A stretch of DNA of 64,000 nucleotides from the NCBI GenBank assembly GCA_028870635.1, contig JAGWPE010000121.1, positions 1-64,000 of the forward strand. Direction: 5' to 3'. Source of the DNA: Gammaproteobacteria bacterium. GTDB taxonomy: Bacteria; Pseudomonadota; Gammaproteobacteria; Steroidobacterales; Steroidobacteraceae. The notes below the pieces were generated by a model. It searched no databases. It had not been told where the DNA came from and saw only the letters and a program-made list of their open reading frames with translations. A program made the position numbers and the translations under genes. This document shows, piece after piece, positions 2,589 through 19,562 of the stretch; position 1 is the first letter of the stretch, and every line of letters starts with the position of its first letter.

Positions 2589-4016
2589 TCAGAGTACCTC
2601 GGTGTCGTAGAACTCGCCGAACAGCTCCTGCTCCGACGGGCGATCCTCGGGAATCGGGCGGCTGACCCAGGTCGTCTGCATGAAATGCTTGAGGTGGATG
2701 TTCTCGTTGGTGATGTTGCCGCCCCAGATGCCGCACCCCAGGCTCGAGGTCATCGGCATCCCGTTGTTGAACGCGCCGGCGTTCGCCTTCGACTGCGGCT
2801 GCCTGACCATCATGCGGCTCACGGGCGCCACGCGGGCCAGCCGGTCGATATGGCCGTCGTCGTGCGAGTAGATGCCGCACGAATGTCCCTTGCCGCCGAC
2901 CTCGTAGATCTGCCGCACCATCTCGAGCGCCTGATCGAAGCCCTCGTAGCGATAGACCGCGAGCGCCGTGGTCAGCTTCTCCCGCGACCAGTTGTGCTGC
3001 GGGCCGATCCTGTCGTTCTTCACCATGATGAACTTGCGGTCGGCGGGGATCCCGAAGCCGGCGAGCTCCGCCAGGCGTTGCGGTGCGCACGCCACGCTGT
3101 CCGGCAGACGATGACCCTCTTCGTCCCAGATCACCCGCTCCAGCGCCTTGGCCTGCGGCTCGCTCGCGAGGAACCCGCCCTCGGCCTCGAGGGCTTTGAG
3201 AAACGGCTCGTAGATCCGCGAGTCGATGAGCAGGTTGCCGTCGGCCGAGCAGCCGGAGCCGAAGTCGGAGGTCTTGGAAACGCGGGTATTGCGCGCCGCG
3301 ATGTCGAGGTCCGCGGTCTCGTCGATCACCATCGTCGAGTTGCCCGCGCCGACGCCGTAAGCCGGACGCCCGGAGCTGTAGGCGGCGCGCACCATTGGCT
3401 GGCCGCCGGTCGCGAAAGTGAGATCGCAACGGGACATCAGATATTGCGTCGAGGCAATGCTCGGGCGCCCGACGCACTGCAGCAGATCCGCCGGCGCCCC
3501 TTGGCGCTCGAGGGTTTCCCTCATGACGCGCACCACCTCGCGGGTGGTGTTCTTCGAGCGCGGGTGCGGCGAGAAGATGACCGCATCGAGGCATTTGACG
3601 GCGTAAATGGCGGTGTAGGGCGGTGTCAGCTCGGGGTTGGTCGTCGGCACGAGAGAGGCAATCACCCCCGCCGGCTTGCCATACTTGACGATCCCCTTAG
3701 CGGGAAGCTCCTCCACGATCCCGATGCTCTTCTGCCGCAACGCATCGCGCAGAACGCCCATGATCTTGAAGCGCTTGGATATGCGGCCCTGCGGATCGCC
3801 GAGCTTGCTTTCCTCGACGCTCATGCGGGCAAAGCGCGTGAAGGTTTTCTCGTTGGCGGTCGCCCAGCCGAGCGCCTGGCAGAGGCGGTCCGCCTGCTGC
3901 TGGCTGTAGCGCTCGACGGCGCGCATCGCCGCGCGGGCGCGTCCGATGATCGCATCGATTTCGGCGCGCTCGGCCTCACCGAGCTCGCCGCGCGCCTCTT
4001 TCACTGCCGTAGCCAT
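2589..4016 (-). CDS. CoA-acylating aldehyde dehydrogenase, SauS (sulfoacetaldehyde DH)/EutE-like
   Basis: 475 aa; aldehyde dehydrogenase-like with AGNSTMVIDETAD, SKTSDFGSGCSADGN and NNGMPMTSSLGCGIWGGNITNENIHLKHFMQTTWVSR, as in acylating ALDHs. Confidence 0.8.
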   Translation of the reverse strand: MATAVKEARGELGEAERAEIDAIIGRARAAMRAVERYSQQQADRLCQALGWATANEKTFTRFARMSVEESKLGDPQGRISKRFKIMGVLRDALRQKSIGIVEELPAKGIVKYGKPAGVIASLVPTTNPELTPPYTAIYAVKCLDAVIFSPHPRSKNTTREVVRVMRETLERQGAPADLLQCVGRPSIASTQYLMSRCDLTFATGGQPMVRAAYSSGRPAYGVGAGNSTMVIDETADLDIAARNTRVSKTSDFGSGCSADGNLLIDSRIYEPFLKALEAEGGFLASEPQAKALERVIWDEEGHRLPDSVACAPQRLAELAGFGIPADRKFIMVKNDRIGPQHNWSREKLTTALAVYRYEGFDQALEMVRQIYEVGGKGHSCGIYSHDDGHIDRLARVAPVSRMMVRQPQSKANAGAFNNGMPMTSSLGCGIWGGNITNENIHLKHFMQTTWVSRPIPEDRPSEQELFGEFYDTEVL

Positions 4017-4085
4017 TCTTCGAACTCCTCGCTCGGCGCCGGTGGCCGCTGGCCGGCCTCACTCGGGCGTCGCCTGATCCGCGCC

Positions 4086-4114
4086 AGTATGGACGAACTG
4101 GATAGTTCAGTCAA
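4086..4114 (-). promoter_or_regulatory. Putative promoter with embedded operator A for the acylating ALDH operon
   Basis: Reverse strand TTGACT-17 nt-CATACT; spacer contains GAACTATCCAGTTC (plus strand GAACTGGATAGTTC, 4095-4108). Confidence 0.6.
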
Positions 4115-4135
4115 ACGCCGCCCGCACCGCGGCAT

Positions 4136-4166
4136 TTGACGTAGTGTACGAACTAGTGAGCATAAT
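4136..4166 (+). promoter_or_regulatory. Putative promoter with embedded operator B for the MFS gene
   Basis: TTGACG-19 nt-CATAAT; spacer contains GTGTACGAACTAGTGAG, matching sites D and E. Confidence 0.5.
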
Positions 4167-4244
4167 AGCATCCTGCGCCGGGAGCCGGCCAAACCCGGCC
4201 ACCGCCGCAGCCGGGACCGGGGGCCAAATCTGGTAGATTGCATC

Positions 4245-5567
4245 ATGAACCAATCGGAACATACGCTCGCTCGCACCCCGGCGCTCACCGTGAGGCCCAC
4301 CCGAGCCCGCTTTCTCGCGCTGGCGCTCGTCACCGCCGGCACGACCATCAACTACCTCGACCGCGCCGTGCTCGGCATCGCGGCGCCGCTCCTCAAGACC
4401 CGGTTGCACCTGTCGCCGAGCGAGCTCGGGTTCCTGTTGTCCGCCTTCTCGTACTCCTACGTTGCCTCGCAGATTCCGGGCGGCATACTCCTCGACCGGC
4501 TCGGCACCAGGATCGTCTACGGCTTCGCGGTCGGCATCTGGTCGATCTTCACTTTCCTGCAAGGGGCCGCTTGGAGCTTCGTGACGCTGCTCGGCTGCCT
4601 GCTGGGCCTCGGCGCGGCGGAAGCGCCCTGCTTTCCCTCGAACAGCCGGGTGCTCGGGGCCTGGTTCCCCCAGGGGGAGCGGGCCCGCGCCAACGGGGTC
4701 TTTTCGCTCGGACAGTACTTCGGACTCGCATTTCTCAGTCCGCCCCTCTATTGGGTGGCCGACACGTGGGGCTGGCGCGCCCTGTTCTTTCTGACCGGCG
4801 CCGCGGGGCTGATTTTCACGGCCTTCTGGTTCGTCTTCTATCGGGATCCCCAACACAGCCGCTCGGTCAACAGTGCGGAGCTGGATCACATCAAAAGCGG
4901 CGGCGGCCTCGTTCGTCCTCCGCCTCCGCCCCGATGGTCGTGGCGGAGCATGCGCCTGCTGCTCGGCAACCGCGCGTTTCTGGGAGCCGGACTCGGCCAG
5001 TTCGCGAGCAACTCGACCCTCGTATTCTTTCTCACCTGGTATCCCACGTACCTCGCCTCGGCTCAGCACCTGAAGCTGGCGACTGCGGGAATCCTCGCCG
5101 CCCTGCCCTACATCGCCGCCTCCGTGGGACTGATGTTCGGGGGCTGGTGGTCGGACTGGCTGATCCGGCGCACCGGCTCCGCCACGATCGGCCGCAAGAC
5201 CCCCCTCGTGACGGGACTCGCCATGGCGAGCACACTGCTGCTCGCCGGCTTCATGCACGACATCACCGCCGTGATCGGCATTTTCTCGTTCGTGTTCTTC
5301 GGCCAGGGCATGTGCAATCTCGGATGGACGCTCATCACCGACCTCGCGCCGCCGGATCTGCGCGGTCTCACCACCGGGATGTTCAATCTGTTCGCCAACC
5401 TCGCGGGCATCCTGATCCCGGCCGTGATCGGCGTGATCCTCGGCAGCACGCGCTCCTTCGTGGGCGGCCTCGCATTCGTCAGCGTGATCGCGCTCCTCGG
5501 CATGCTCTGCTACCTGGTGCTCCTCGGGCCGGTACGGCAGATCGAGTTGCCGGGCGCGCAAGCCTGA
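4245..5567 (+). CDS. MFS transporter, anion:cation symporter-like
   Basis: 440 aa, TINYLDRAVLGIAAPLL in TM1 and about 12 hydrophobic segments. Confidence 0.85.
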   Translation: MNQSEHTLARTPALTVRPTRARFLALALVTAGTTINYLDRAVLGIAAPLLKTRLHLSPSELGFLLSAFSYSYVASQIPGGILLDRLGTRIVYGFAVGIWSIFTFLQGAAWSFVTLLGCLLGLGAAEAPCFPSNSRVLGAWFPQGERARANGVFSLGQYFGLAFLSPPLYWVADTWGWRALFFLTGAAGLIFTAFWFVFYRDPQHSRSVNSAELDHIKSGGGLVRPPPPPRWSWRSMRLLLGNRAFLGAGLGQFASNSTLVFFLTWYPTYLASAQHLKLATAGILAALPYIAASVGLMFGGWWSDWLIRRTGSATIGRKTPLVTGLAMASTLLLAGFMHDITAVIGIFSFVFFGQGMCNLGWTLITDLAPPDLRGLTTGMFNLFANLAGILIPAVIGVILGSTRSFVGGLAFVSVIALLGMLCYLVLLGPVRQIELPGAQA

Positions 5568-5578
5568 ATCGTGGCCGC

Positions 5579-6460
5579 GTGAGCCGGCTCAGCCTCAAGC
5601 AGATCGAGTACTTTCGGGCCGTGATGGAGACCGGCACCGTGAGCGGCGCGGCCGCTCTGCTCCACGTCTCGCAGCCCAACGTCAGCAGAATGCTCAAATA
5701 CACGGAATCGCGGCTCGGACTCGGCCTGTTTCAGCGCGAGCACGGCCGGCTGCTCGCCACGCCGGAGGCGCACGCGCTCTTTCGCGAGGTTCAGTCGCTG
5801 CATCTTCATCTCGAGTCGGTGCAGGAGGCGGTCGATCGCATCGCCAGCGGTCAGCTCGACCGCTTTCCGGTCGGCGCCTCGCCGAGCCTCGGCCGATTCG
5901 TCGTGCCCTCGCTGCTGTCGCGCCTGCGGCGCGACTTTCCTTCCCTGCCGATCAAGCTCGACATCCTCTCGGTCTCGCAGGTGATGGACTACCTCGCCTA
6001 CGGGCAGGGCGAATGCGCGTGCACCATATTTCCGGTTGCCGATCCGCGCATCGAGTCGCAAACCTTCGCGACCGGCGCGCTGGTCTGCGCCGTCCCCAGG
6101 GATCACCGGCTGAGCGGCGCCGCGGCCATCTCTCCGCAGGACATCACCGGCGAGACGCTCATCGCTTTCGACGCGAACACACCGCACGGCAGAGTCGTCG
6201 CGCAGTTCTTCGGTCAAGCGCCGATGCCGAGGATCGCCTGCACGGTGCGGTTCGCCGAGTCGGCGTGCGCGCTGGCCGAGCAGGGGAACGGCATCGCCCT
6301 GGTGGATGAGTTCACGGTCTCGGGGGGCGCATTCCCCAACCTCGTGGCCGTCCCGGTCCGGTTCCGGCGCCCCTTTCGGATCTACTTCCACCGCGCCAGC
6401 GAGCGTCCGTTGTCCGCGGCGGGTGTCAGGCTCCGCGAGCTGCTGAGCCGCTGGCAATAG
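5579..6460 (+). CDS. LysR-family transcriptional regulator
   Basis: GTG start inside the 4238-6460 ORF: VSRLSLKQIEYFRAVMETGTVSGAAALLHVSQPNVSRMLKYTESRLGLGLFQREHGRLLATPEA, LysR wHTH. Confidence 0.85.
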   Translation: MSRLSLKQIEYFRAVMETGTVSGAAALLHVSQPNVSRMLKYTESRLGLGLFQREHGRLLATPEAHALFREVQSLHLHLESVQEAVDRIASGQLDRFPVGASPSLGRFVVPSLLSRLRRDFPSLPIKLDILSVSQVMDYLAYGQGECACTIFPVADPRIESQTFATGALVCAVPRDHRLSGAAAISPQDITGETLIAFDANTPHGRVVAQFFGQAPMPRIACTVRFAESACALAEQGNGIALVDEFTVSGGAFPNLVAVPVRFRRPFRIYFHRASERPLSAAGVRLRELLSRWQ

Positions 6461-6560
6461 TGCCGGGCGCCTATGGGGTCCGAAGCGCTTATGCCTTATC
6501 ATTGTGAGCGGTGGGTTTTGGGAGCCGCATCCATCCGGTGCGGGTGAAAGTCGACAGCGT

Positions 6561-7241
6561 ATGGCCAAGAGAAATCCCGCGGCATCCCCCAGCGAGACGC
6601 TGGAAGGCCTCTCGGACGCCGAGCGGACCAAGGCCGACATCGTGGCCGTCGCCATGGAGGAATTCGCCGAGAACGGGCTTGCCGGCGCGCGGGTCGATGC
6701 GATCGCCGACCGCACGCGCACCTCGAAGCGGATGATCTATTACTATTTCGGCAGCAAGGAGGGGCTGTATCGCGCCGTGCTCGAGCAAGCCTACAACGGC
6801 ATCAGGACCCGGGAGACCCAGACGCACCTGCGGGACCTGCCGCCGCGCGAGGCGCTGCGGCGCCTGGTGGAGATCACCTTCGACTACGACGAGGGCCATC
6901 CCGGCTTCATCCGGCTGATCTCGGTGGAGAACATCCACTACGCCGAGCACTTGAAGAAGCTGACATCCATTCGCGGGATCAATGTCAGCGCGATCGAGAC
7001 CGTGGAGGACATCCTGGCGCGCGGCCGGGCTGCGGGGATATTCCGCGCCGACATCAACGCCTTCGATCTTCACCTGCTGATCAGCTCCTTCTGCTTCTTC
7101 CGCGTGTCGAACCGGCACACGGTCGGCGCGATCTTCAAGCGGGACCTGTCCGAGACGCGAACACTGTCGCGGCACAAGCGCCTGATCGTCGAGACGGTGG
7201 AGCGGCTGGTCCTCCTCAATCCGGCCGGCGCCGGCGATTAG
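6561..7241 (+). CDS. TetR/AcrR-family transcriptional regulator
   Basis: TetR_N signature KADIVAVAMEEFAENGLAGARVDAIADRTRTSKRMIYYYFGSKEGLYRAVLEQAY; ORF could extend to 6504. Confidence 0.85.
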   Translation: MAKRNPAASPSETLEGLSDAERTKADIVAVAMEEFAENGLAGARVDAIADRTRTSKRMIYYYFGSKEGLYRAVLEQAYNGIRTRETQTHLRDLPPREALRRLVEITFDYDEGHPGFIRLISVENIHYAEHLKKLTSIRGINVSAIETVEDILARGRAAGIFRADINAFDLHLLISSFCFFRVSNRHTVGAIFKRDLSETRTLSRHKRLIVETVERLVLLNPAGAGD

Positions 7242-7693
7242 CCGCCGCCCTGGCTCGGGCGGCCCGGGGCCGCCGCAAATCGCCCCGCCCCTTCGCCCGG
7301 CGGAAACACCAGCTCCACGCACAGCCCGGACGGGTCCGCGAGGCGCACCAGTACCTGCCCGGTGACGGAGCTCGGCTGCACCGTATTCGGTATGCGCAGC
7401 GCCTCCAGCCTGCTCAGCACCTCCTCGAGCCCGGAGCATTCGAACGCAACGTGGTCGAACGCCCGAGCCGGTACGGCAGCGGCGGGCGTCTCGGTCCGCT
7501 CGAGCCCCTCGACCAGATGCACGACCGCAGCGTCGCCGGCATAGAGCCATAGCCCCTCGGAGGCGAGCGGCGGCCGATAGCCGATCCTCAGGCCGATGAC
7601 CTGACAGTAGAACTCGCGCAGCGCCGCGAAAGCGCGGCCCGACGCGCGTAGATTGATGTGATCCAGCCGGTGCACAGGCATGGCGCCCTCCAC
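7238..7693 (-). CDS. VOC (glyoxalase/bleomycin resistance) family protein
   Basis: 151 aa; RLDHINLRA...FDHVAFECSGLEEVLSRL...RLADPSGLCVELVFP. Confidence 0.8.
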   Translation of the reverse strand: MEGAMPVHRLDHINLRASGRAFAALREFYCQVIGLRIGYRPPLASEGLWLYAGDAAVVHLVEGLERTETPAAAVPARAFDHVAFECSGLEEVLSRLEALRIPNTVQPSSVTGQVLVRLADPSGLCVELVFPPGEGAGRFAAAPGRPSQGGG

Positions 7694-7703
7694 GTCCGGC
7701 CCC

Positions 7704-7727
7704 TATAATGCACTATCTAGTTAGTGC
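7704..7727. promoter_or_regulatory. TATAAT -10 box and operator C between the VOC and quinate/shikimate DH-1 genes
   Basis: TATAAT 7704-7709 followed by GCACTATCTAGTTAGTGC (7710-7727); core ACTA-TC-TAGT shared with site D. Confidence 0.6.
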
Positions 7728-7732
7728 CTGAA

Positions 7733-8647
7733 ATGCTCAGCCAGGACCTCATGGCGAACCCTCACGGACCTCCCGACGCACCCGCGGATGCGAAAGCGGT
7801 CCTGCGGCTCGGCCTCATCGGCAGCGGCATCCAGGCGTCCAAGGCTCCCGCGCTGCACGAGGCGGAAGCCGCCGCGCAGGGCATTCGCTGCGCGTATCAA
7901 CTCCTCGACCTCGATGCCCTGCAGGCCGGCGTCGAGCGCCTGCCGGACCTGCTCGCGGACGCCGAGCGGCGCGGATTCGCGGGACTCAACATCACCCATC
8001 CCTGCAAGCAGGCCGTCATCCCTCTGCTGCATGAGCTGAGCCCGCACGCGCAGGCCATCGGGGCCGTCAATACCATTCATTTCTACGGCGGCCGGCGCAC
8101 GGGCTACAACACGGATGCCTGGGGTTTCGAGGAGAGCTTCCGACACGACATGCAGGGCGCATCGCTGGCGGCCGTCGTCCAGGTGGGTGCAGGCGGTGCC
8201 GGAGCGGCCACGGCTTACGCCCTTCTCGAGCTCGGTGCCCGGGAGCTGCGGATCTTCGATGCCGATTCCGGCCGCGCGGAGGCTCTGGCGGCGAGTCTCT
8301 CGGAGTGTTTTCCGGACCGTGAGGTGCGCGCCTGGCGCAACCTCTGCGAGGCCGTTGCCGTTGGCACCGCCGACGGCATCGTCAACGCCACCCCGATGGG
8401 CATGGCCAAGCACCCCGGCTCCGCGGTGCCGGCCGAAATCCTGCATCGGGACTTGTGGGTCGCGGACATCGTCTACTTCCCGCGCGAGACGCAGCTGCTG
8501 AGCGCCGCGCGCGCAGCCGGGTGCAGGACGCTCGACGGCGGGGGAATGGCGGTCTATCAGGCTGTCCGCGCGTTCGAGATCTTCACCGGCCGGACTGCCG
8601 ACGCCGAGCGCATGCGGCGGCACTTCGAGCGCATCGCCGCCGGCTGA
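7733..8647 (+). CDS. Quinate/shikimate dehydrogenase (paralog 1)
   Basis: IGSGIQASKAPALHEAEA, NITHPCKQAVIP (catalytic Lys), GYNTDAWGF, GAGGAGAATAYAL nucleotide-binding loop, NATPMGM; start could also be GTG at 7724. Confidence 0.85.
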   Translation: MLSQDLMANPHGPPDAPADAKAVLRLGLIGSGIQASKAPALHEAEAAAQGIRCAYQLLDLDALQAGVERLPDLLADAERRGFAGLNITHPCKQAVIPLLHELSPHAQAIGAVNTIHFYGGRRTGYNTDAWGFEESFRHDMQGASLAAVVQVGAGGAGAATAYALLELGARELRIFDADSGRAEALAASLSECFPDREVRAWRNLCEAVAVGTADGIVNATPMGMAKHPGSAVPAEILHRDLWVADIVYFPRETQLLSAARAAGCRTLDGGGMAVYQAVRAFEIFTGRTADAERMRRHFERIAAG

Positions 8648-8665
8648 TCGAGCGGGAGCACCGCC

Positions 8666-10531
8666 ATGCTCACCTCCATTGCGACGGTATCGCTGAGCGG
8701 GACGCTGGAGGCAAAGCTGAGAGCCATCGCTCAGGCGCGCTTTCACGGCGCCGAGATCTTCGAGAATGACCTGCTCACGGCCCGCAGCACCGCGCGAGAG
8801 GTCGCGGCGCAGTTGCGCGATCTCGGTCTGACCTGCACCCTCTTTCAGCCGTTTCGGGATTTCGAGGGCATGCCGGACGACCTCAGGGTGCGGACCTTCG
8901 ACCGCCTCGAGAGGAAGTTCGACCTGATGCAGGAGCTGGGGGCCGGGTTGCTGCTCGTCTGCTCGAGCGTCTCACCGGCATCGAGCGGGGACAGAAGCCG
9001 GATAGTGACTGATTTCCGCGAGCTCGCGGAGCGCGCGGCCAGGCGCGGCCTGCGGGTCGGCTACGAGGCGCTGGCATGGGGTCGCCATGTGTTCGATCAT
9101 CGCGATGCGTGGTCGGTGGTCAAGGAAGTCGGCCATCCGGCCCTGGGGCTGATCCTCGACAGCTTCCATTCCCTGGCGCGCTCCATACCCATCGAGAGCC
9201 TGCGGGAGATCGATCCGGCGCGCATCTTCATCGTGCAGCTCGCCGATGCTCCCATCGTGCAGATGGACTATCTCTCCTGGAGCCGCCACTTCCGCAACAT
9301 GCCGGGCCAGGGTGAGCTGCCGCTGGTGGACTTCCTCGCCACCCTGCTCGAGATCGGATACGGCGGGCCGCTGTCGCTCGAGATCTTCAACGATCAGTTT
9401 CGCGCAACGTCGTCATCGACCGTGGCGCTCGATGGCCACCGCTCGCTCACCTTCCTCTTCGATCAGGCCGTCCGCCGGCTGGCGCCGCGCTTCTTGCCCG
9501 AGCTGCCGCCACGCGCCACGCCGGGCGGCTTCGAATTCGTCGAGTTCGCCGCCAACGAGGAGGAATCCGGTCAACTCGAATCCATGTTCACTGCCCTCGG
9601 CTTCAGCCGAGTGGGCCGGCACAGGTCGAAAAACGTCGCGCGCTGGCGGCAGAACCGCATCAATTTCGTGATCAACAGCGAGCCGGAAAGCTTTGCGCGG
9701 GCGTATGACGCCGTGCACGGCGCTTCCGTATGCGCCGTGGGCGTGAGCGTGCGCGACATACCCGGCGCGCTTCATCGCGCAGAGGGCCTGCAGATCCCGC
9801 GATTCTCGCAGCCCATCGGGCCGGGTGAGCTGGTGATGCCTTCCATTCAGGCGCTCGGCGGAAGTCTCCTTTACTTCATGCCCGCAGGCAGGGAAGACGA
9901 GATCTGGGACTGCGAGTTCCTCGCCGCAGGCGGCGGCGGTCCCGATGCCGGTCTCGAATCGATCGATCACATTGCCCAGACGATGCCGTACGAGGAAGTG
10001 TCCTCGTGGCTGCTCTACTACGTGTCCCTGTTCGAGCTCGCAAAGACGCCGGTCGCGGAGATCGCAGACCCCCTCGGGCTCGTTCAGACCCGCGCCCTCG
10101 AGTCGCCCGGCGGCGGCCTGCGCCTCGTGCTCAACGCCTCGACCGGATCGCGAACGCTCTCCGCGCGGTTCGTGCAGGGCTACCATGGGGCCGGATTGCA
10201 GCACATCGCGCTCGCCACCGGCGACATCATCGCCACGGCCAGGCGCCTGCGCTCTCTCGGGCTGCCGATCCTGCCCATCCCTCGCAATTACTACGACGAC
10301 CTGGCCGCTCGCTTCGCGCTCGAGCCGGCCCTGCTCGATGAGCTCGCGCAGCTCAATATCCTCTATGATCGCGACGCGGGCGGTGAATACTTCCAACTCG
10401 TCTCGCGGGCCTTCGCCAAGCGGTTCTTCTTCGAGATCGTCGAGCGCAGGGGCTATCGCGGCTATGGCGCCGCCAACGCTCCGATTCGCCTGGCGGCTCA
10501 GTCCCGATACCGCGACGACATCGAGCGCTGA
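8666..10531 (+). CDS. quiC: QuiC-type 3-dehydroshikimate dehydratase: N-terminal xylose isomerase-like TIM barrel fused to C-terminal HPPD/VOC domain
   Basis: 621 aa; AP-endonuclease-2/TIM-barrel N-terminus (FHGAEIFENDLL, LSLEIFNDQFR) and HPPD-like C-terminus (GLQHIALATGDI...EYFQLVSRAFAKRFFFEIVERRGYRGYGAANAPIR); adjacent to a shikimate DH. Confidence 0.75.
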   Translation: MLTSIATVSLSGTLEAKLRAIAQARFHGAEIFENDLLTARSTAREVAAQLRDLGLTCTLFQPFRDFEGMPDDLRVRTFDRLERKFDLMQELGAGLLLVCSSVSPASSGDRSRIVTDFRELAERAARRGLRVGYEALAWGRHVFDHRDAWSVVKEVGHPALGLILDSFHSLARSIPIESLREIDPARIFIVQLADAPIVQMDYLSWSRHFRNMPGQGELPLVDFLATLLEIGYGGPLSLEIFNDQFRATSSSTVALDGHRSLTFLFDQAVRRLAPRFLPELPPRATPGGFEFVEFAANEEESGQLESMFTALGFSRVGRHRSKNVARWRQNRINFVINSEPESFARAYDAVHGASVCAVGVSVRDIPGALHRAEGLQIPRFSQPIGPGELVMPSIQALGGSLLYFMPAGREDEIWDCEFLAAGGGGPDAGLESIDHIAQTMPYEEVSSWLLYYVSLFELAKTPVAEIADPLGLVQTRALESPGGGLRLVLNASTGSRTLSARFVQGYHGAGLQHIALATGDIIATARRLRSLGLPILPIPRNYYDDLAARFALEPALLDELAQLNILYDRDAGGEYFQLVSRAFAKRFFFEIVERRGYRGYGAANAPIRLAAQSRYRDDIER

Positions 10532-10539
10532 GCGCCCGC

Positions 10540-11682
10540 TCATCCGCCCGGCTTCGCGCCTGACAGCGCTCGATAGGCCACCCGGTCCGCCTGGTATGAG
10601 GAGATCCAGAGCCGGTTGTCCACGATGAGTCCCGTCGTCGCACCGTTGAAGGCCGGATTCGGCCCGCCATGCGCGAGTACGGTGTAATGCAGCGTATGCG
10701 GATCCAGCGCTGCCACGACATAGCCCCGATGGCAGAGCATCGGGTCGGCATGCCCGTTGATTATCTTGCGAACCCCGCCGCACGCCGGCTCATCGTAAGT
10801 CATTCCGGCGGCGATGAGCCTGCCCCCCTCCCAGTGAACGTTGTCCGGCATGAATCCCGGAGCGGTGGCCGCCCGAATGGGTCGGCGCGTATCCGACGCG
10901 GAATACATGTAGATCGCATGGAGGCCGAACGCCACGACGTAGAACCTCTTGCCGTCCGGCGCGGCCGTGAGTCCATTGTTTCCGGGTAACCCGGTGCCCG
11001 GCAGCAACCGAAAGCCTTCCGTTCCCGGGCGCCATGCGAATACAGCGCCCGTGGGCCTGCCCCGCATGAAATCGGCTTTGGTGGTGCCGGGCCGATTGAG
11101 CACCGTCGCGATGATCGTGCCGTCCGGATACGAGGAGACGGCATTCGCGGCATCGCCCGCCGGCATCAGCACACAACCCCGCCACCGCGGCACAGGCGCC
11201 CCACCGGCCATGGACACATCGAATATCTCGATGCTTTCACGTCCGCCGTGATTTGCGGCGTACAAGCGATAATGCCCGGAGCTCAAAGCACGCAGACTCA
11301 GGCCCTGAGTGTCGAGCTCACCACCCTCAGGCGAGCCCGGACAATCCGCCGCGCCCGCACGCCTGCCGGCGCCGCGCTCGCCTGGCGAGCCGAGGTACCA
11401 ACGCCGCAATGTCAACGCCCGGGTATCCAGGACCTGCAATCCGCCGCCCGGAACAAATGCGCTGACGATCACCCATCGCGTTCCCGGAATCCGCACCATG
11501 TCTTCCGGATGGTGCGCCCCGCAAACGAAGTGCAGCTCGCCGGCCGGACCGCAGCCGGCTGCGCCATTCGCACTCCCCGCCGGGCCCTGCGCCGCAGCCG
11601 CCGGCACTGGCGCCAGAAGCGCCAGCGCGGCGGCCAAGATCGTCGAGCCTACGGCCGCGCGGGCTGCCGCGCGGCGAATCAC
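10540..11682 (-). CDS. Secreted beta-propeller-like protein of unknown function
   Basis: 380 aa with N-terminal signal peptide (ILAAALALLAPVPAAAAQG); start overlaps the TonB receptor stop (ATGA). Confidence 0.6.
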   Translation of the reverse strand: MIRRAAARAAVGSTILAAALALLAPVPAAAAQGPAGSANGAAGCGPAGELHFVCGAHHPEDMVRIPGTRWVIVSAFVPGGGLQVLDTRALTLRRWYLGSPGERGAGRRAGAADCPGSPEGGELDTQGLSLRALSSGHYRLYAANHGGRESIEIFDVSMAGGAPVPRWRGCVLMPAGDAANAVSSYPDGTIIATVLNRPGTTKADFMRGRPTGAVFAWRPGTEGFRLLPGTGLPGNNGLTAAPDGKRFYVVAFGLHAIYMYSASDTRRPIRAATAPGFMPDNVHWEGGRLIAAGMTYDEPACGGVRKIINGHADPMLCHRGYVVAALDPHTLHYTVLAHGGPNPAFNGATTGLIVDNRLWISSYQADRVAYRALSGAKPGG

Positions 11683-14600
11683 TGCAGACTCATGCGCACG
11701 CCGACGTAGTATGCCCGTCCGATCTGATCGAACACGGCGGGATCGCTTCCGGTCTGAGAGCTCGAAACGGCGACGATACCGTGATTGAGCAGGTTATTGA
11801 TGCCCCCGCGTACCTGCCAGCTGTCGTTGATGTCGTAGCTCGCGAACAGATCGTAGATGTCATACGGCGCCACGCCGAACCCGGGTGACTTCGGGCTGGT
11901 GACCGAGCTGACATCCTTCATCGCGTCTTGATACCGCCAGCGCAAGCCGGCGGTCGCGCCGCCCACGCTGTACGAGACGCTCGTGATCGCCTTCCACTTG
12001 GGATAGCTCGCATTCAGGGTGTTGGTCCCGGAATACTCGGTCCAGGGCGTTCCCGACAGGGTCTGCACTTCCTGGTTGTGGTTGTAGCCGATGCCGCTCG
12101 AGAGCGCGAGCATTCCCGGAACACGCAGTCCGTGAATGTCCGCCAGATCGAACGCCCAGTTGAACTGGAAGTCGATCCCGTCGGTCTTCAATCCGCCCAG
12201 GTTCTCGTAAGGCGTGCGGACCAGGACGAGCTGCCCCGTCGAGGGATCCCGGCTGATGAGCGCGCAGAACGGATTGGTCGGCGAGTAGCTCGGATTCGAG
12301 CCGTCGAGGTTGTAGCACTTGCTCAGCGTGGCCAGCCCCGGGACCACCGAGATCACGTTCTTGATCTCGATGTTGTAGTAGTCCACGGAAGCAGACAGCC
12401 GCCTGAGCATCGGGGAGTCCGAGTGGGATGTCCACACCAGCCCGAAATTGAAGGAATTGGCCTTCTCCGGGGTCAGCTTGAGATTGCCCTCGCTGAGCGC
12501 GCCGGTCGCAGTCGTCGGGAACTCGTACGAATTGATGACGGACGCCGGAACCCCCTGCGCCTCGCACAGTGCCGCGACCTGGGCGCCGCCTGCGCCCGTC
12601 CGGGCGGTCGAGCGCACATCGCACGGATCACCGAGGGAAGTCGGCGGTGTTCCGAAAGCGAGCTGGGACCCCGCGGCCGCCGCGTAGAGCTCGCCGATCG
12701 CCGGCGCGCGCACCGCCCGCTGGTAGCCGCCGCGGACGAGGAGGCTGTCCGCAGGCTGCCAACGGAGGTTTCCCGCGTACGTCGAGACGCCTCCCGAGGT
12801 ATCGTAATCCGAATAGCGGAAGGCGCCGCCGACGTCCAGACGTTTCACCGCCGGCAGGTCGCGCAGCAGCGGAACGTCCAACTGAGCCGCACCCTCCGAT
12901 ACCGAAATGGCGCCTCTGGCCGGAGCAGAGGCGATGACGGCCTCGATATTCTGCGCGGCGAGGTCGGCGTTCGGATGAAACGCATAGCTGTTGGTGCGGT
13001 GATCTCCCAGCAGCGCCATCTGGATGCGGCCGGCCGGCAACCCGGGAACGGAGCCCTGGAGGAGAATCTGCTCCTGGCCCTGGCTCAGCAGCTCCGAGCT
13101 GATCGCCGTAGTCGTCATGTATTGCTGGCATGCCGACGAGATGTTCTGACTGTTGGCCAGGCTGAACGGATCGAATCCTCCGGCGCAGATCGACGCTCCG
13201 CCGTCCGGCGCATTCAGCAGGGTCTGCACGCGGCTCTTCAGCACCGCGTTGTAGTTGGATTGAATGTGATCGGTGTTGCTCCAGCTGGCGTACGCGTCCC
13301 AGGTCCAGTCGCCGAACGGCAGGGCTCCCCGCAGGCCGCCCAGGTACTGATCGACGGTGTAGTGCTCGTCCCATGACTTCGTGGGCAGGCCCACATACCT
13401 GGCGTTCCAGGTGAATGGAGCGGTGGGATTGGGTCTGGACGCCAGCACCGTCGCGAGGTCCGCCGGGATGAACGGGTTGGTCACGGGAACCGTATCCGCG
13501 GCACCGAACTGAGTGAGGCTGCCGCCGCTGTCTGTAACGACGTGCCAGTCGGCGTAGAGCACCTGTCCATACGCCACGAGCCCCGGAGCGATCTTGAAGT
13601 CGAACTTGCTGAACAGGTTGTGCCGGTCGAGCGCGTTCTCCAGCTGCAGCTGAGGACCGACCGGCATGCGCACGTTGCCGCCGATGACCCCGTACCACCA
13701 CCCGTTGCTGTAGGCCATCGGCCCCCTGTAGTTCTTCGCCCCGGTCTCCGTGAACAGCGTGCCGTCGTTGTTGAAGCCCAGCGGGACGGAGTTACTGACC
13801 GCAGAAGTCACTCCGTAACCCTGAAAGAGAGCGTTGACCACGGCCGGGTTCGGCAGGTTGTTCCCCGCCGGCACATACGTGCCCTGGCCTATGTACGATG
13901 ACGGAACCTGATAGTCGTAGAAGCCGCGCTTGCAGCCGCAGAGTGGCGGGTTGTACGTGTACCCGATGGCCACCAGCACATTGCCTCTGCCGTCGTCGAA
14001 CTTCGTGCCGAAGGCGACCGACGCGTCAACCGTGCGGTAGTCGTTCTGGAACGAATTACCGTACTGCACGTCGGCGCGCACGCCCTGGAAGTGGCTGAGA
14101 GTCTTGAAATTGACCACACCCGACATCGCGTCGGAGCCGTACACCGCCGACGCACCGCCGGTGATGGTCTCCACGCTCGAGATGATCGAGCTCGGGATGA
14201 GATTGATGTCCACGTCTCCCGAGATATCGGCAACGGGCAGCCGGCGGCCGTCCAGCAGGACGAGGTTCCGGTTCGCTCCAAGGCCGTGCAGATTGATGGT
14301 GGCATGACCACCGGTGCCTTGCCCGCCCGTCGCCGAAGTTCCCGCCGGCGTGAAGTCCGGCAGCTGGTTCAAGGCGCTCTCGATGTCGACCTGGCCCGAC
14401 TGCCGGATCTGAGCCGCGCTCGTCACGACGATGGGGCTCGGCGATACCTGATTGGGCTCGCGCAGCAGCGTTCCGGTGACGACCACTTCCTGGAGGGACA
14501 GCGTGGGCGCCGCAGCGTCCTGCGCGCCTGCCGGCGGGTCGGAGGGCTGATTACTCTGCGCGCTGGGCTGCGGCGCATTGACGGCCGAGTCCTTCGGCCA

Positions 14601-14705
14601 GGCGGGCCGCGCCGCGATCACCAGCAGCGACACCGCGGATATCCCCGCCAGGTAGTGCGGCCACGCGGCAGTGGCCCGTGACCCGTTTTTTGCTCGAGAC
14701 ATCAT
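11679..14705 (-). CDS. TonB-dependent outer membrane receptor
   Basis: Plug domain LQEVVVTGTLLREPNQVSPSPIVVTSAAQIRQSGQVDIESALNQLPDF, INLHGLGANRNLVLLDGRRL, ASAVYGSDAMSGVVNF; C-terminus ends in aromatic/hydrophobic YYVGVRMSLQ; start MMSRAKNG preferred over the 14765 ORF start. Confidence 0.9.
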   Translation of the reverse strand: MMSRAKNGSRATAAWPHYLAGISAVSLLVIAARPAWPKDSAVNAPQPSAQSNQPSDPPAGAQDAAAPTLSLQEVVVTGTLLREPNQVSPSPIVVTSAAQIRQSGQVDIESALNQLPDFTPAGTSATGGQGTGGHATINLHGLGANRNLVLLDGRRLPVADISGDVDINLIPSSIISSVETITGGASAVYGSDAMSGVVNFKTLSHFQGVRADVQYGNSFQNDYRTVDASVAFGTKFDDGRGNVLVAIGYTYNPPLCGCKRGFYDYQVPSSYIGQGTYVPAGNNLPNPAVVNALFQGYGVTSAVSNSVPLGFNNDGTLFTETGAKNYRGPMAYSNGWWYGVIGGNVRMPVGPQLQLENALDRHNLFSKFDFKIAPGLVAYGQVLYADWHVVTDSGGSLTQFGAADTVPVTNPFIPADLATVLASRPNPTAPFTWNARYVGLPTKSWDEHYTVDQYLGGLRGALPFGDWTWDAYASWSNTDHIQSNYNAVLKSRVQTLLNAPDGGASICAGGFDPFSLANSQNISSACQQYMTTTAISSELLSQGQEQILLQGSVPGLPAGRIQMALLGDHRTNSYAFHPNADLAAQNIEAVIASAPARGAISVSEGAAQLDVPLLRDLPAVKRLDVGGAFRYSDYDTSGGVSTYAGNLRWQPADSLLVRGGYQRAVRAPAIGELYAAAAGSQLAFGTPPTSLGDPCDVRSTARTGAGGAQVAALCEAQGVPASVINSYEFPTTATGALSEGNLKLTPEKANSFNFGLVWTSHSDSPMLRRLSASVDYYNIEIKNVISVVPGLATLSKCYNLDGSNPSYSPTNPFCALISRDPSTGQLVLVRTPYENLGGLKTDGIDFQFNWAFDLADIHGLRVPGMLALSSGIGYNHNQEVQTLSGTPWTEYSGTNTLNASYPKWKAITSVSYSVGGATAGLRWRYQDAMKDVSSVTSPKSPGFGVAPYDIYDLFASYDINDSWQVRGGINNLLNHGIVAVSSSQTGSDPAVFDQIGRAYYVGVRMSLQ

Positions 14706-14773
14706 CTCTCCCCCTACGCGCAAGTTGCATCGAGATCGGTAAAGCTCTGGTGCGTTTCGTCTCAAGAGTAGAC

Positions 14774-14787
14774 GAACTAGATAGTTC
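14774..14787. promoter_or_regulatory. Operator D upstream of the TonB receptor
   Basis: GAACTAGATAGTTC, inverted repeat with 6-bp arms and 2-nt centre; reverse strand TTGACC lies just upstream as a candidate -35. Confidence 0.65.
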
Positions 14788-14840
14788 AGGTCAACGCAGC
14801 ACTCTCCTCGTGAGGCATCGGCCGAGTTGCGGGCGCTGCC

Positions 14841-16376
14841 TCAGCGGGCGGCGAACGTGAAGGCCGAAAGAGGCGCCCGGCCGAGCCAGACGCCCTGGAA
14901 GCCGGCGCGGTTGTCCGCCCACACGACGTAGAGATCGTTGGGCCCGAGCGCCAGATCCTGTATGTCATCGCCGAAGAGGCCCGCATTCCGATACGGATCG
15001 ACGGCAGGCGAGCGGGCATGGCTGATGCGCAGCGGCGTGCTGAAGGAATGCCCCCCGTCCTTCGACACCGCCGCCCAGATGTTATAACTGAAAGACTTCG
15101 GGTAGATCGCCCGCCAGGCCAAGGCGAGCGCGCCTGCGGCCGAGTACTGGAACGTCGGGCGCGTGAATGCGGCGGCGCCGGCAGTGGCCGCGGCGAGAAT
15201 GGGCGCGGACCAGGTTCTGCCGTAGTCCTCGGTGAGGATCACTTCGTAGCGCGGCCCGGAAGGATCGTACTCGAGCACCGCGTAGTGCCCCGCCTTGGAG
15301 GGGTCGGCGGCGAGCGCAGTGGGCCCGGGCGCATCGCGCTGCGGCCGGCCGAGCGCGCTCGCCGGCGCGAATGACATCGGCGGCAGCAGACGGTACTCAA
15401 AGTCGCGTCCCTGGCTGCGGCTCAACCCGAACACGCCGCAGGGACACGCCGATCGCGCGCCGGGCGCGCTCGCTGCCACGTAGATGACGGCGAGAGCGCC
15501 GTGGCCGGCGGCCATGCCGATTCCACGGCTGAGCTGCGGGTATTGCGGGGAATCCCACGGGTAGATCGTGCCGAACGAGTGCCCTCCATCCGTCGAAGCC
15601 GTGACGTACGCCTGCCAGCGGAACTTCCCCGGCGGGGCGCCGACCCTCGTGAGTCCACCGCCGGCCTGGCCGTAGATCGTTCCGGTCGAATCGTCGATGA
15701 AGAGGAAGGGTCTGTCCCAGGGCGAGGCGCGGCCATGCCCGGAAAGCGGCTGCACGCCGCGGGCGAAACGGCCGAGCTGATAGTCGCTGATGATGGATAC
15801 CGGCTTGCTCCAGGTCCTGCCCTTGTCGGTCGAGATGACGAGCGCGGATTCGCCGAGGAAGCCTCCCGAAGTTTCCCGCGGCTCGCATCCGGCGAGGAAC
15901 TCCCCCCGTTGCGTGACAGCGACGAACGCATCCGGACATCGGGTGAATCGCCCGCTCAGAATGGGCAGGTTGTCCAGCTTCCAGGTGACACCGCCGTTCC
16001 GAGTGACGGCGATACGGGTCACCGTCGAATACGGCGCGGCGTGGAATGCGTCCGTGCCGTTCTCATGCAGCGGCTCACCCCCCAACTCCTGCACGTTGGC
16101 CATCGCCACGACGACGATGTTCTTCGGATCGGTGGGATTGACGGCGATCATCGGCTCGCCGCCGCCGCGCATCGAATCACCGATGAGCAGGTATTCCTCG
16201 GTCTTCCAATGGGGCACCACCGCCGCGAACTCTGCCGGAGTCGGCGGACTTATCAGCGGTTGCGCCTGGGCGAGAGCGCCCGCCGGACCGGCCAGAGCCG
16301 AAACGGCCAAACCCGAAACGGCCAGACCCGAAACGGCCAGGGCCGCAATCGCGCAGATTCCGGGTATCCGATTCAT
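14841..16376 (-). CDS. Secreted BNR/sialidase-fold beta-propeller protein
   Basis: Signal peptide MNRIPGICAIAALAVSGLAVSGLAVSALAGPAGALAQ; repeated Asp-box-like S-x-D-x-G-x-T-W (TRNGGVTWK, STDKGRTWSKP, TEDYGRTWSAP, SKDGGHSFS). Confidence 0.75.
   Translation of the reverse strand: MNRIPGICAIAALAVSGLAVSGLAVSALAGPAGALAQAQPLISPPTPAEFAAVVPHWKTEEYLLIGDSMRGGGEPMIAVNPTDPKNIVVVAMANVQELGGEPLHENGTDAFHAAPYSTVTRIAVTRNGGVTWKLDNLPILSGRFTRCPDAFVAVTQRGEFLAGCEPRETSGGFLGESALVISTDKGRTWSKPVSIISDYQLGRFARGVQPLSGHGRASPWDRPFLFIDDSTGTIYGQAGGGLTRVGAPPGKFRWQAYVTASTDGGHSFGTIYPWDSPQYPQLSRGIGMAAGHGALAVIYVAASAPGARSACPCGVFGLSRSQGRDFEYRLLPPMSFAPASALGRPQRDAPGPTALAADPSKAGHYAVLEYDPSGPRYEVILTEDYGRTWSAPILAAATAGAAAFTRPTFQYSAAGALALAWRAIYPKSFSYNIWAAVSKDGGHSFSTPLRISHARSPAVDPYRNAGLFGDDIQDLALGPNDLYVVWADNRAGFQGVWLGRAPLSAFTFAAR
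16291..16350. repeat. Four tandem copies of an approximately 15-bp unit (GCCAGACCCGAAACG) inside the signal-peptide coding region
   Basis: gccagagccgaaacg / gccaaacccgaaacg / gccagacccgaaacg / gccagggccgcaatc read directly; encodes AVSGL-type pentapeptide repeats. Confidence 0.85.
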
Positions 16377-16380
16377 GGCA

Positions 16381-17484
16381 TCAGCCGCCGCTGCCCCGAC
16401 CGAGAGTGGCTTCGAAGAACTCGAAGGTTCTCTGCAGCGCCTGCAGGCTCGCCGCGCGGGTCGCAGCCGGAGTCTTGCCGACGAAGCTGTGGTTGACGCC
16501 GGGGATGATGACCAGTTGCGCCTCATCACCCTTGGAGCGCAGGAGATGATAGAAATCGCGCGACTGCTGCGGCCCCACGACCGTATCAGCCCCGCCGACG
16601 ATGAGCAGAGCCGGCGGCTCCCCGGCCTTCACGTAGGTCGCGGGACTGGCAACCGCCCGCTGCTGCTGCGTGCACGCGGTGCGGGGGCAGCCCAGAAAGC
16701 GGTCGACCATCGAGCCTGACTTCGCTGCCCGCCGCTCGCTCGGTACGGGCTGGCTGAAATCGAACACTCCATACCAGGTGGCGAAGGCCTGCACGCAGTC
16801 TCCCTGCGCGCCCGCCGGCGCAATGTTCGCCTCCCCGATACCCGGTCCGGCGACCGGCCCCCCGGAGGTGCTGGGACTCAAGGCCGCCACGGCGCAGGTC
16901 ACCGCATCGAGTGCGGCAAGATGACCGCCGGCCGAGCCGCCCCAGACTCCGACGCGGCGTGCATCGATGCCGTATTCCCCCGCATTTGCGCGCAGCCAGC
17001 GGATCGAGGCCTTGACGTCCTGGATGGCCGCGGGAAACGGCGCCTCGCTGCTCAAGCGATAGGCGACTGAGGCGACCACGTAGCCGCGCGAGGCGATCAG
17101 CGCCAGGACGTCGGGCCAGTTCGAAAACGCGCCCGACTGCCGCGGCTGACCGAATGCCCAGCCGCCGCCGTGAATGTAAACGATGAGCGGATGCGGCACC
17201 CGAGGACCCGGCGGCACGTACAGATCGAGATGAAGCGGCTGATATCCCGGAATGCTGGCGTACGTCAGGTTGGGATAACCGACGACGCCGCCCGGGAACG
17301 GCACGCGCACCGTGGGATAGTGATCACCCAACACCGCCTGGCTGGCTGTCGGGATCGAATCGAGCACTGCGCGCGAAAACCCCTGGGACGCCGCGCAGGC
17401 CGACCCCGCCGCGAGCAGCGCCGCCAGTGTCCCGGCGGCCAGCCCCGCACGATGCAACCGCCCAACCGCAATGAATCGCTTCAT
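16381..17484 (-). CDS. Secreted alpha/beta hydrolase (BD-FAE/carboxylesterase-like)
   Basis: IVYIHGGGWAFG oxyanion motif, GGSAGGHLAALD nucleophile elbow, N-terminal signal peptide. Confidence 0.8.
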   Translation of the reverse strand: MKRFIAVGRLHRAGLAAGTLAALLAAGSACAASQGFSRAVLDSIPTASQAVLGDHYPTVRVPFPGGVVGYPNLTYASIPGYQPLHLDLYVPPGPRVPHPLIVYIHGGGWAFGQPRQSGAFSNWPDVLALIASRGYVVASVAYRLSSEAPFPAAIQDVKASIRWLRANAGEYGIDARRVGVWGGSAGGHLAALDAVTCAVAALSPSTSGGPVAGPGIGEANIAPAGAQGDCVQAFATWYGVFDFSQPVPSERRAAKSGSMVDRFLGCPRTACTQQQRAVASPATYVKAGEPPALLIVGGADTVVGPQQSRDFYHLLRSKGDEAQLVIIPGVNHSFVGKTPAATRAASLQALQRTFEFFEATLGRGSGG

Positions 17485-17500
17485 CGTTCCCCCAAGAGCG

Positions 17501-17520
17501 TAATGTACGGACTAGTGCGT
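17501..17520. promoter_or_regulatory. Operator E between the esterase and quinate/shikimate DH-2
   Basis: TAATGTACGGACTAGTGCGT, nearly identical to site B (GTAGTGTACGAACTAGTGAG). Confidence 0.5.
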
Positions 17521-17588
17521 GACTTTGGTAAAGAATATACCATTGCGGTGCCCGCCGCCAAGTGGCGGGCTTTGACTCGGTGAAAGGC

Positions 17589-18464
17589 ATGACGGATCAA
17601 TCCAGCGATCTCACTACCGCACAGTGTCTGCTCGGGCTCATCGGCAGCGGAATTCAAGCCTCCAAGTCGCCCGCGCTCCACGAGGCGGAAGCGGCCGCCC
17701 AGGGGTTTCAGTGCCGTTATGAGCTGATCGACCTCGATCGGCTCGGGGTGGGCATCGAGCACCTGCCGGTGCTGCTCGCCGAAGCCGAGCGCCGCGGGTT
17801 TTCCGGGCTCAACATCACCTACCCGTGCAAGCAGGCGGTGATTCCGTTCCTGCACGAGCTGAGTCCGCAGGCTCGAACCATCGGAGCGGTCAATACCGTT
17901 CATTTCAACGGGGGCCGCCGGATCGGATACAACACCGACGCGTGGGGCTTCGCCGAGAGCTTTCGCCAGGACATGAAGGGCAGCTCGATCGACACGGTGG
18001 CGCAGGTGGGCGCCGGTGGCGCCGGCGCCGCGACGGCCTTTGCGCTCCTCGAGCTCGGCGCCCGGCGATTGCGGCTCGTCGACAGCGAGTTCTCCCGGGC
18101 CGAAGCGCTGTCGGCGAGCCTCAGCGCGCAGTTCCCCGAGCGCGACATCCGCGCCTGGCGGCGTCTCGATGAGGCCGTCGGCGGCGCTGATGGAATCGTC
18201 AATGCGACGCCGATGGGGATGGCCCGGCATCCGGGCTCCGCCATTCCGGCTCACCTGCTCGCCCCGGGCCTGTGGGTTGCCGACATCGTATACTTCCCCC
18301 TGAAGACCGAGCTGCTGCGGGCGGCCCGGGCGGCCGGCTCGAGGACGCTCGATGGGGGTGGGATGGCGGTCTATCAGGCCGTGCGCGCCTTCGAGATCTT
18401 CACCGGCCGTGCCGCCGATGCCGTGCGCATGCGGCGCCATTTCGAGCGGATTGTCGGCCACTGA
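17589..18464 (+). CDS. Quinate/shikimate dehydrogenase (paralog 2)
   Basis: Collinear and highly similar to 7733-8647 (IGSGIQASKSPALHEAEAAAQGF, NITYPCKQAVIPFLHELSP, GYNTDAWGFAESF, NATPMGMARHPGSA). Confidence 0.85.
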   Translation: MTDQSSDLTTAQCLLGLIGSGIQASKSPALHEAEAAAQGFQCRYELIDLDRLGVGIEHLPVLLAEAERRGFSGLNITYPCKQAVIPFLHELSPQARTIGAVNTVHFNGGRRIGYNTDAWGFAESFRQDMKGSSIDTVAQVGAGGAGAATAFALLELGARRLRLVDSEFSRAEALSASLSAQFPERDIRAWRRLDEAVGGADGIVNATPMGMARHPGSAIPAHLLAPGLWVADIVYFPLKTELLRAARAAGSRTLDGGGMAVYQAVRAFEIFTGRAADAVRMRRHFERIVGH

Positions 18465-18477
18465 CGGTGGAGGAGCC

Positions 18478-19350
18478 ATGTGCGACCAAGACGACTTCGA
18501 TCGGTTGGACTACGCGCGGCGCGTCGCGCTGTCACGTCGGCAGTTTGGCCTGTTGACGGTAGGGGCGGGACTCGCCTCACTGCTGCCCCCGCCCGCTGAT
18601 GCGGCGCAGGTCACCGGCAGGTCCGTCGACATCCGGACAGCGGAGGGGGTGTGTGATGCCTACTTCACTCACCCGACGTCCGGAGCCCATCCGGGTGTGC
18701 TGATGTGGCCGGACATCTTCGGGTTGCGCCCGACGTTCCAGCACATGGCGGACCGCCTGGCTCAGTCGGGCTACGCAGTGCTGGTCGTCAATCCGTTTTA
18801 CCGGATCAGGAAAGCCCCGACATCCCCGCCCCACCCGGATTTCAACGACCCGGCCACCCACAAGGAGCTCATGGGAATGATGGCGTCTCTCACTCCCGAG
18901 GTCACAGTGACGGACGCGCATGCGTTCGTTCCATGGCTCGATGAGCAGACGGCGGTGAGCAGAACACGGAAGATGGCGAGCACGGGCTACTGCATGGGAG
19001 GGCCCTTCACGCTGCGGGCGGCCGCGGAATTCCCCGAACGCATCGGCGCGGGCGCCACCTTCCACGGCGCGGCGTTGGTGACCGACAGACCCGACAGCCC
19101 GCATCTGCTGATCCCGCGGATCAGGGCGCAGTACCTCATGGCCATCGCCGAGAGTGACGACAAGAAGCAGCCCGAGGCAAAGTCGATGCTGCGGGACGCG
19201 TTTGCCAGAGCGCATCTTCAGGCCGAGATCGAGGTCTATCACGGAACGATGCACGGCTGGTGCGTGCCCGACTCCAGCGTCTACGACCATGATGAGGCCG
19301 AGAAGGCCTGGGCCCGTCAACTCGTTCTGCTGAAAAGGGCGCTCGCTTAG
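18478..19350 (+). CDS. Dienelactone hydrolase family protein with Tat-type signal
   Basis: LSRRQFGLLTVGAGLASLLPPPADA leader; WPDIFGLRPTFQHMADRLA; STGYCMGGPF Cys nucleophile elbow; YHGTMHGW. Confidence 0.8.
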   Translation: MCDQDDFDRLDYARRVALSRRQFGLLTVGAGLASLLPPPADAAQVTGRSVDIRTAEGVCDAYFTHPTSGAHPGVLMWPDIFGLRPTFQHMADRLAQSGYAVLVVNPFYRIRKAPTSPPHPDFNDPATHKELMGMMASLTPEVTVTDAHAFVPWLDEQTAVSRTRKMASTGYCMGGPFTLRAAAEFPERIGAGATFHGAALVTDRPDSPHLLIPRIRAQYLMAIAESDDKKQPEAKSMLRDAFARAHLQAEIEVYHGTMHGWCVPDSSVYDHDEAEKAWARQLVLLKRALA

Positions 19351-19403: not shown

Positions 19404-19562
19404 ACAATCCGCGCTCACCCGCCGAGAACTGCGTCACGCGGGCGGAGTTGCCGCTCGCAGACACGGCCAGGTTGCCGTACATTCGCCTCAGCAGCCTCCA
19501 CATCGATCGGAGCCGCGCCTGCGCCTGGACCTGTGCCCGAGGCATGCACACAGACAGCAGAC

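Follow-up and report, generated by a model that had tools for sequence, protein, structure and literature searches.

Which regulator, acting at which DNA sites, controls a block of plant-acid genes carried by a gammaproteobacterial contig of the Steroidobacteraceae? We examined this in a window of 64,000 nucleotides (the whole stretch of DNA analysed, positions 1 to 64,000 of contig JAGWPE010000121.1), in which the genes between 816 and 19350 read, from their predicted products, as a quinate/shikimate catabolic cluster. Two of them, SDH1 (7724-8647, + strand; 423 bits) and SDH2 (17562-18464, +; 420 bits), exceed the cut-off of 235 bits of the quinate/shikimate dehydrogenase family profile NF009201. 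SDH1 is followed by a QuiC-like 3-dehydroshikimate dehydratase composed of a TIM barrel and an HPPD-like domain (8666-10531, +; 671 bits over its full length to NF042435, whose cut-off is 1200). No catabolic 3-dehydroquinate dehydratase was found among the annotated genes of 816-19350. Domain and profile searches identified, in addition, a ThDP-dependent acetolactate-synthase-like enzyme (816-2588, −), a SauS-like CoA-acylating aldehyde dehydrogenase (ALDH; 2589-4016, −; 444 bits, under the 600-bit equivalog cut-off), an MFS transporter of the galactonate/anion symporter type (4245-5567, +), a VOC/glyoxalase-fold protein (7238-7693, −), a TonB-dependent receptor (11679-14765, −), a BNR-repeat, sialidase-like propeller protein (14841-16529, −), a BD-FAE-type feruloyl/acetyl esterase (16381-17484, −; PF20434, 169 bits) and, as the final gene of the block, a dienelactone-hydrolase-fold protein (DLH; 18352-19350, +). 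A protein without any Pfam match (10540-11682, −) is co-conserved with the receptor gene in genomes G216 and G344-G348. Two regulators are encoded between transporter and VOC genes: a LysR-type protein (5576-6460, +), which is a local addition, and a TetR protein (6561-7241, +) with both PF00440 (TetR_N, 52 bits) and PF17938 (TetR_C_29, 154 bits) above cut-off. The ThDP-ALDH pair (816-4016) also occurs in the TetR locus of G335, G374, G276, G296 and G207, and homologues of the BNR-repeat protein sit in the corresponding cluster of G335, G354 and G207. The first gene after the block is a long ORF (19533-22313) with GGDEF- and EAL-like motifs recognised by eye and no operator ahead of it.

An earlier note on this DNA had proposed that five related sequences form an operator family across this block. 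Read directly, all five were present where it had placed them: operator A (TGAACTATCCAGTTCGT; 4093-4109, −), B (TGTACGAACTAGTGAGC; 4145-4161, +), C (GCACTAACTAGATAGTGC; 7709-7727, −), D (14772-14788, −) and E (TGTACGGACTAGTGCGT; 17504-17520, +), all regarded as candidates. The 16-mer ACGAACTAGATAGTTC, of which D is an exact copy, had three matches at up to three mismatches (A, C and D) against 0.10 expected, whereas the B/E pattern TGTACGAACTAGTG was not significant by itself (2 matches against 1.02 expected). Since the B/E form did not rise above chance alone, we asked whether a motif learnt without the genome of the window would find B and E. The training set consisted of regions upstream of homologues of the window genes, drawn from the TetR-homologue loci of further genomes in this order. 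Palindrome-constrained expectation-maximisation (EM) with a zero-order background yielded only codon-periodicity motifs, and simple palindrome enumeration ranked G+C repeats and the like at the top, so that an unconstrained EM model with a fourth-order (Markov-4) background, applied to promoter regions, was needed. Its best de novo motif was ..AcgaACtAacTaGTtcgT..a., and the five best scores of this relatives-only position weight matrix (PWM) in the 64 kb were those of C (19.7 nats), B (15.0), E (14.7), D (13.3) and A (13.1), in this order. The next scores were 10.75 and 6.05 nats, and the simulated null gave maxima of 8.1-11.8 per 64 kb. The five sites are real and beyond chance, and the impression by eye that the window holds no further copy proved right. 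The 10.75-nat match, within the null range, is a weak sixth candidate that covers the MFS start codon (4241-4264, −) and may be a coincidence of coding sequence; the MFS start of G335 bears a sequence resembling it.

The architecture of the motif is less simple than a single palindrome. Operator D is a perfect GAACTA-GA-TAGTTC inverted repeat, as previously described, but in the motif two dyads overlap, their axes separated by 2 bp, which offers a second possible axis of symmetry; with two axes, either one dimer or two may bind. The two axes also led us to drop the idea that B and E had been read in a register wrong by 4 bp relative to A and D: in the unconstrained model all sites line up on ACKAACY, in agreement with the original common alignment.

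The position of the sites is far from random. With operons predicted from gene spacing alone, all five fall inside four operon-head gaps that add up to 419 of 18,535 bp, and every predicted operon head within 816-19350 has a site, in line with a regulon covering the promoters of the block. Operator A lies ahead of the ALDH-ThDP operon, between two promoter-like boxes (TTGACT-17-CATACT) that pass a consensus scan; B, which heads the MFS-LysR-TetR unit, had likewise been placed between −35 and −10 boxes, but these are 19 bp apart, off the optimum, and fail the scan. Operator C is located between the VOC gene (−) and SDH1-QuiC (+), directly 3' of a TATAAT (7704-7709), and covers the listed GTG start of SDH1 (7724), so that the true start of this gene is probably the ATG at 7733 or 7751. 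D is found upstream of the TonB receptor operon, and E in the gap between the esterase (−) and SDH2 (+). Operator A clearly overlaps a core promoter; for B, C and D such overlap is suggested, and for E it is unclear, in a setting where promoter-like matches hardly exceed those of shuffled sequences (3 against 1.8, no clear excess).

Additional sites were searched in the rest of the assembly (3.55 Mb, 83% complete) by pattern matching only. At up to one mismatch, this genome had four matches, namely A, D, E and one further exact copy of the site. This copy, on contig C265, precedes by 63 bp a PQQ/cytochrome-c dehydrogenase gene of the glucose/quinate/shikimate family (TIGR03074; L040:1428-3650, −). 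The gene encodes a 740-aa PQQ propeller protein that carries a CxxCH cytochrome-c motif at its C-terminus, which is unusual in a quinate dehydrogenase. A large sortilin/Vps10-type propeller protein (L040:3773-6931, −), whose gene has the orientation of the PQQ gene, ends just past the C265 operator. Homologues of the PQQ dehydrogenase are linked to the regulator in other genomes: the sister genome G335 has one (77% identical) within the cluster, preceded by two sites, and in G115 one (73%) adjoins the TetR gene, with a site. Allowing two mismatches recovered B, C and ten other matches; pattern matches outside the regulon scored at most 10.9 nats, the best being C15:4055, against at least 13.1 for the regulon sites, and were dismissed. 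Thus, the pattern scan of the own genome revealed no equally good match at unrelated genes, the outcome that would have spoken against a dedicated regulon. In G335 (4.5 Mb), all seven matches to TGWACKAWCYRGTNCGT at up to one mismatch lie in this cluster. Like operator A, a site is present between the MFS and ALDH genes of G335. G115 had a third perfect match to the pattern (C6:10334), which lies inside a glutamyl-tRNA-synthetase-like ORF and was discarded as a chance coding match. The G335 cluster also contains two more TetR paralogues (within L042:11455-16817), which are 57% and 51% identical and each lie close to a candidate site; one of them has a TGA within its match.

Conservation was assessed in 77 named TetR loci outside the training set, from Rhizobium, Bradyrhizobium, Azospirillum, Pseudomonas, Streptomyces and others. 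The motif was present in 69 of these independent loci, distributed over Alphaproteobacteria, Pseudomonas and Actinomycetes, against 7-14 for reversed or permuted control matrices; the remaining eight had no motif match. It was 28 times denser upstream of TetR, QuiC and SDH genes than at other places, and in five Bradyrhizobium loci with no QuiC or SDH match (L077, L079, L080, L089 and L101) it still occurred about 110-150 bp before tetR. Together with the relatives of the same order, these loci provide the conservation at orthologous positions expected of functional operators. They also bear on the idea that the sites arose by chance or shared ancestry and are devoid of any regulatory role: the motif is short, and operator D and the C265 site are identical over about 31 bp, but recovery of the motif de novo from other species and its maintenance across two phyla ahead of the same gene families make this explanation extremely improbable.

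Two regulators could own these sites, the TetR protein, formerly considered the obvious candidate, and the LysR protein, its alternative. Among 396 genomes of the order, QuiC and this TetR occur together in all 19 genomes with QuiC, none has QuiC without it, and five have the TetR only (Fisher p about 4e-28, not corrected for phylogeny); five further QuiC matches near E 1e-61, covering the HPPD-like half only, were left out of this count. The rival idea that the sites belong to the LysR protein and serve to activate the locus gains some weight from the presence of the LysR gene in one predicted operon with the TetR gene, and from the control of quinate use by LysR proteins in other bacteria (QsuR of Corynebacterium, QuiR of Listeria). 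However, a close LysR homologue exists in just 2 of the 396 genomes, no homologue at E<1e-5 was detected in 68 of the 77 named TetR loci, 60 of which nonetheless bear the motif, and the sites seem to overlap core promoters, whereas the boxes of LysR activators are usually found around −60. We consider LysR ownership very unlikely and strongly favour the TetR protein, towards which the co-occurrence, a correlation, points consistently. Its recognition helix, TSKRMIYYYF, is nearly invariant. As KRMIYYYF served as a search bait, this conservation is partly circular in the named set, and a homologue set collected without this peptide as bait was therefore read separately, with the same result. Among solved structures, no close homologue with a known ligand was found, the best match being an unnamed regulator (3npi, 102 bits).

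From the motif, its placement and conservation, and the TetR co-occurrence, we infer that A-E and the C265 site are very probably operators of the TetR protein 6561-7241, which would act as an autoregulated, ligand-released repressor of a quinate/shikimate regulon. One dimer, or two together, would bind TGNACKANCYRGTNCGT-type sites overlapping core promoters and repress the ALDH-ThDP, MFS-LysR-TetR, VOC, SDH1-QuiC, TonB receptor, esterase-BNR and SDH2-DLH units, as well as the distant PQQ/cytochrome-c dehydrogenase. Since site B heads MFS-LysR-TetR, read as one operon, the protein would repress its own gene along with its targets. Release might be triggered by quinate, shikimate, the downstream dehydroshikimate or protocatechuate, or the source ester, upon which uptake across the outer membrane, cleavage of the ester, transport across the inner membrane, oxidation and aromatisation to protocatechuate would start together. 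The ester fed into the pathway would probably be of the chlorogenate type.

It is possible, if rather unlikely, that the real substrate is another plant compound of which quinate is one part, a reading compatible with TetR control of the regulon. Examples would be a hydroxycinnamoyl-quinate ester, or an aldehyde or 2-oxo acid for the ThDP enzyme and the acylating ALDH. The BD-FAE-type esterase and the TonB receptor would suit such substrates, and so would the recurrence of the ALDH-ThDP pair in the five TetR loci mentioned above, with PWM-supported sites preceding the ALDH gene in G335 and G276. Against this reading, the genes that most widely accompany the TetR gene are SDH (68 of 80 loci) and QuiC (58 of 80).

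In its general features, the proposed TetR repressor resembles the local repressors of the TetR/AcrR family: TetR_N and TetR_C_29 domains above their gathering scores, predicted autoregulation and clustering with its targets. RutR, the nearest known regulator by NCBIfam profile, has an operator layout, 7-2-7, that matches the motif dyad TGTACTA-NN-TAGTACA, but its genes and half-site sequence differ, and the window protein scores 53.6 bits against an equivalog cut-off of 368. The known regulators of quinate/shikimate catabolism belong to the LysR (QsuR, Listeria QuiR) and IclR (PcaU/QuiR of Acinetobacter) families; they act on the genes of this pathway too (SDH, QuiC/QsuB) but differ in protein family and operator. 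In the open-licence papers covered by our literature search, no TetR regulator was assigned to quinate/shikimate catabolism, which is weak evidence of novelty since only such papers were searched. The system thus appears ordinary in kind, with a regulator-operator pairing for which the open-licence literature searched yielded no published assignment.

The Pseudomonas loci L112, L134 and L140 have the order quiC-tetR-SDH and contain the motif. PA0243 of P. aeruginosa, which we take to lie likewise between quiC and an SDH gene, is by this gene order perhaps an orthologue. TetR proteins are also capable of activation, and at its sites the window protein might chiefly activate, or act in both ways. 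PA0243 appears in one paper as a TetR with no known function or targets (PMC5175280) and in another, under the name Pip, as involved in the positive regulation of pyocyanin genes (PMC9736018), the latter being consistent with activation; Pip of P. chlororaphis increases phzI/phzR expression (PMC3684763). Against this, the arrangement of the window sites is of the repressor type, with A flanked by putative −35 and −10 boxes and a TATAAT directly next to C, and we regard a mainly activating or dual role as improbable. Pip/PA0243 shares with the window protein its family and, presumably, its quiC and SDH neighbours, and differs in having been published as pyocyanin-related. If PA0243 is orthologous, QuiC derepression could, speculatively, drain the shikimate pathway; the link is rated as speculative because such a drain would not by itself account directly for the effect on phzI/phzR. 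We therefore advance only tentatively, as somewhat doubtful, the wider proposal that one orthologous TetR and operator code governs the catabolism of quinate/shikimate and linked plant esters across Proteobacteria and Actinomycetes, taking the role of the LysR and IclR regulators of model species, with Pip/PA0243 as its Pseudomonas version and a phenazine phenotype due at least in part to deregulated diversion of the shikimate pathway.

For the family as a whole, these results suggest a likely role and a DNA code for a widespread TetR of soil bacteria that use the plant acids quinate and shikimate, offering a testable function for what has been an orphan group. The predicted regulator-operator pair is specific and transferable within a widespread pathway for plant compounds, and it would extend the regulon to the PQQ/cytochrome-c dehydrogenase on a second contig and to the unexplained ALDH-ThDP pair. 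The operator could also be used as a biosensor element for whichever compound of the pathway acts as inducer.
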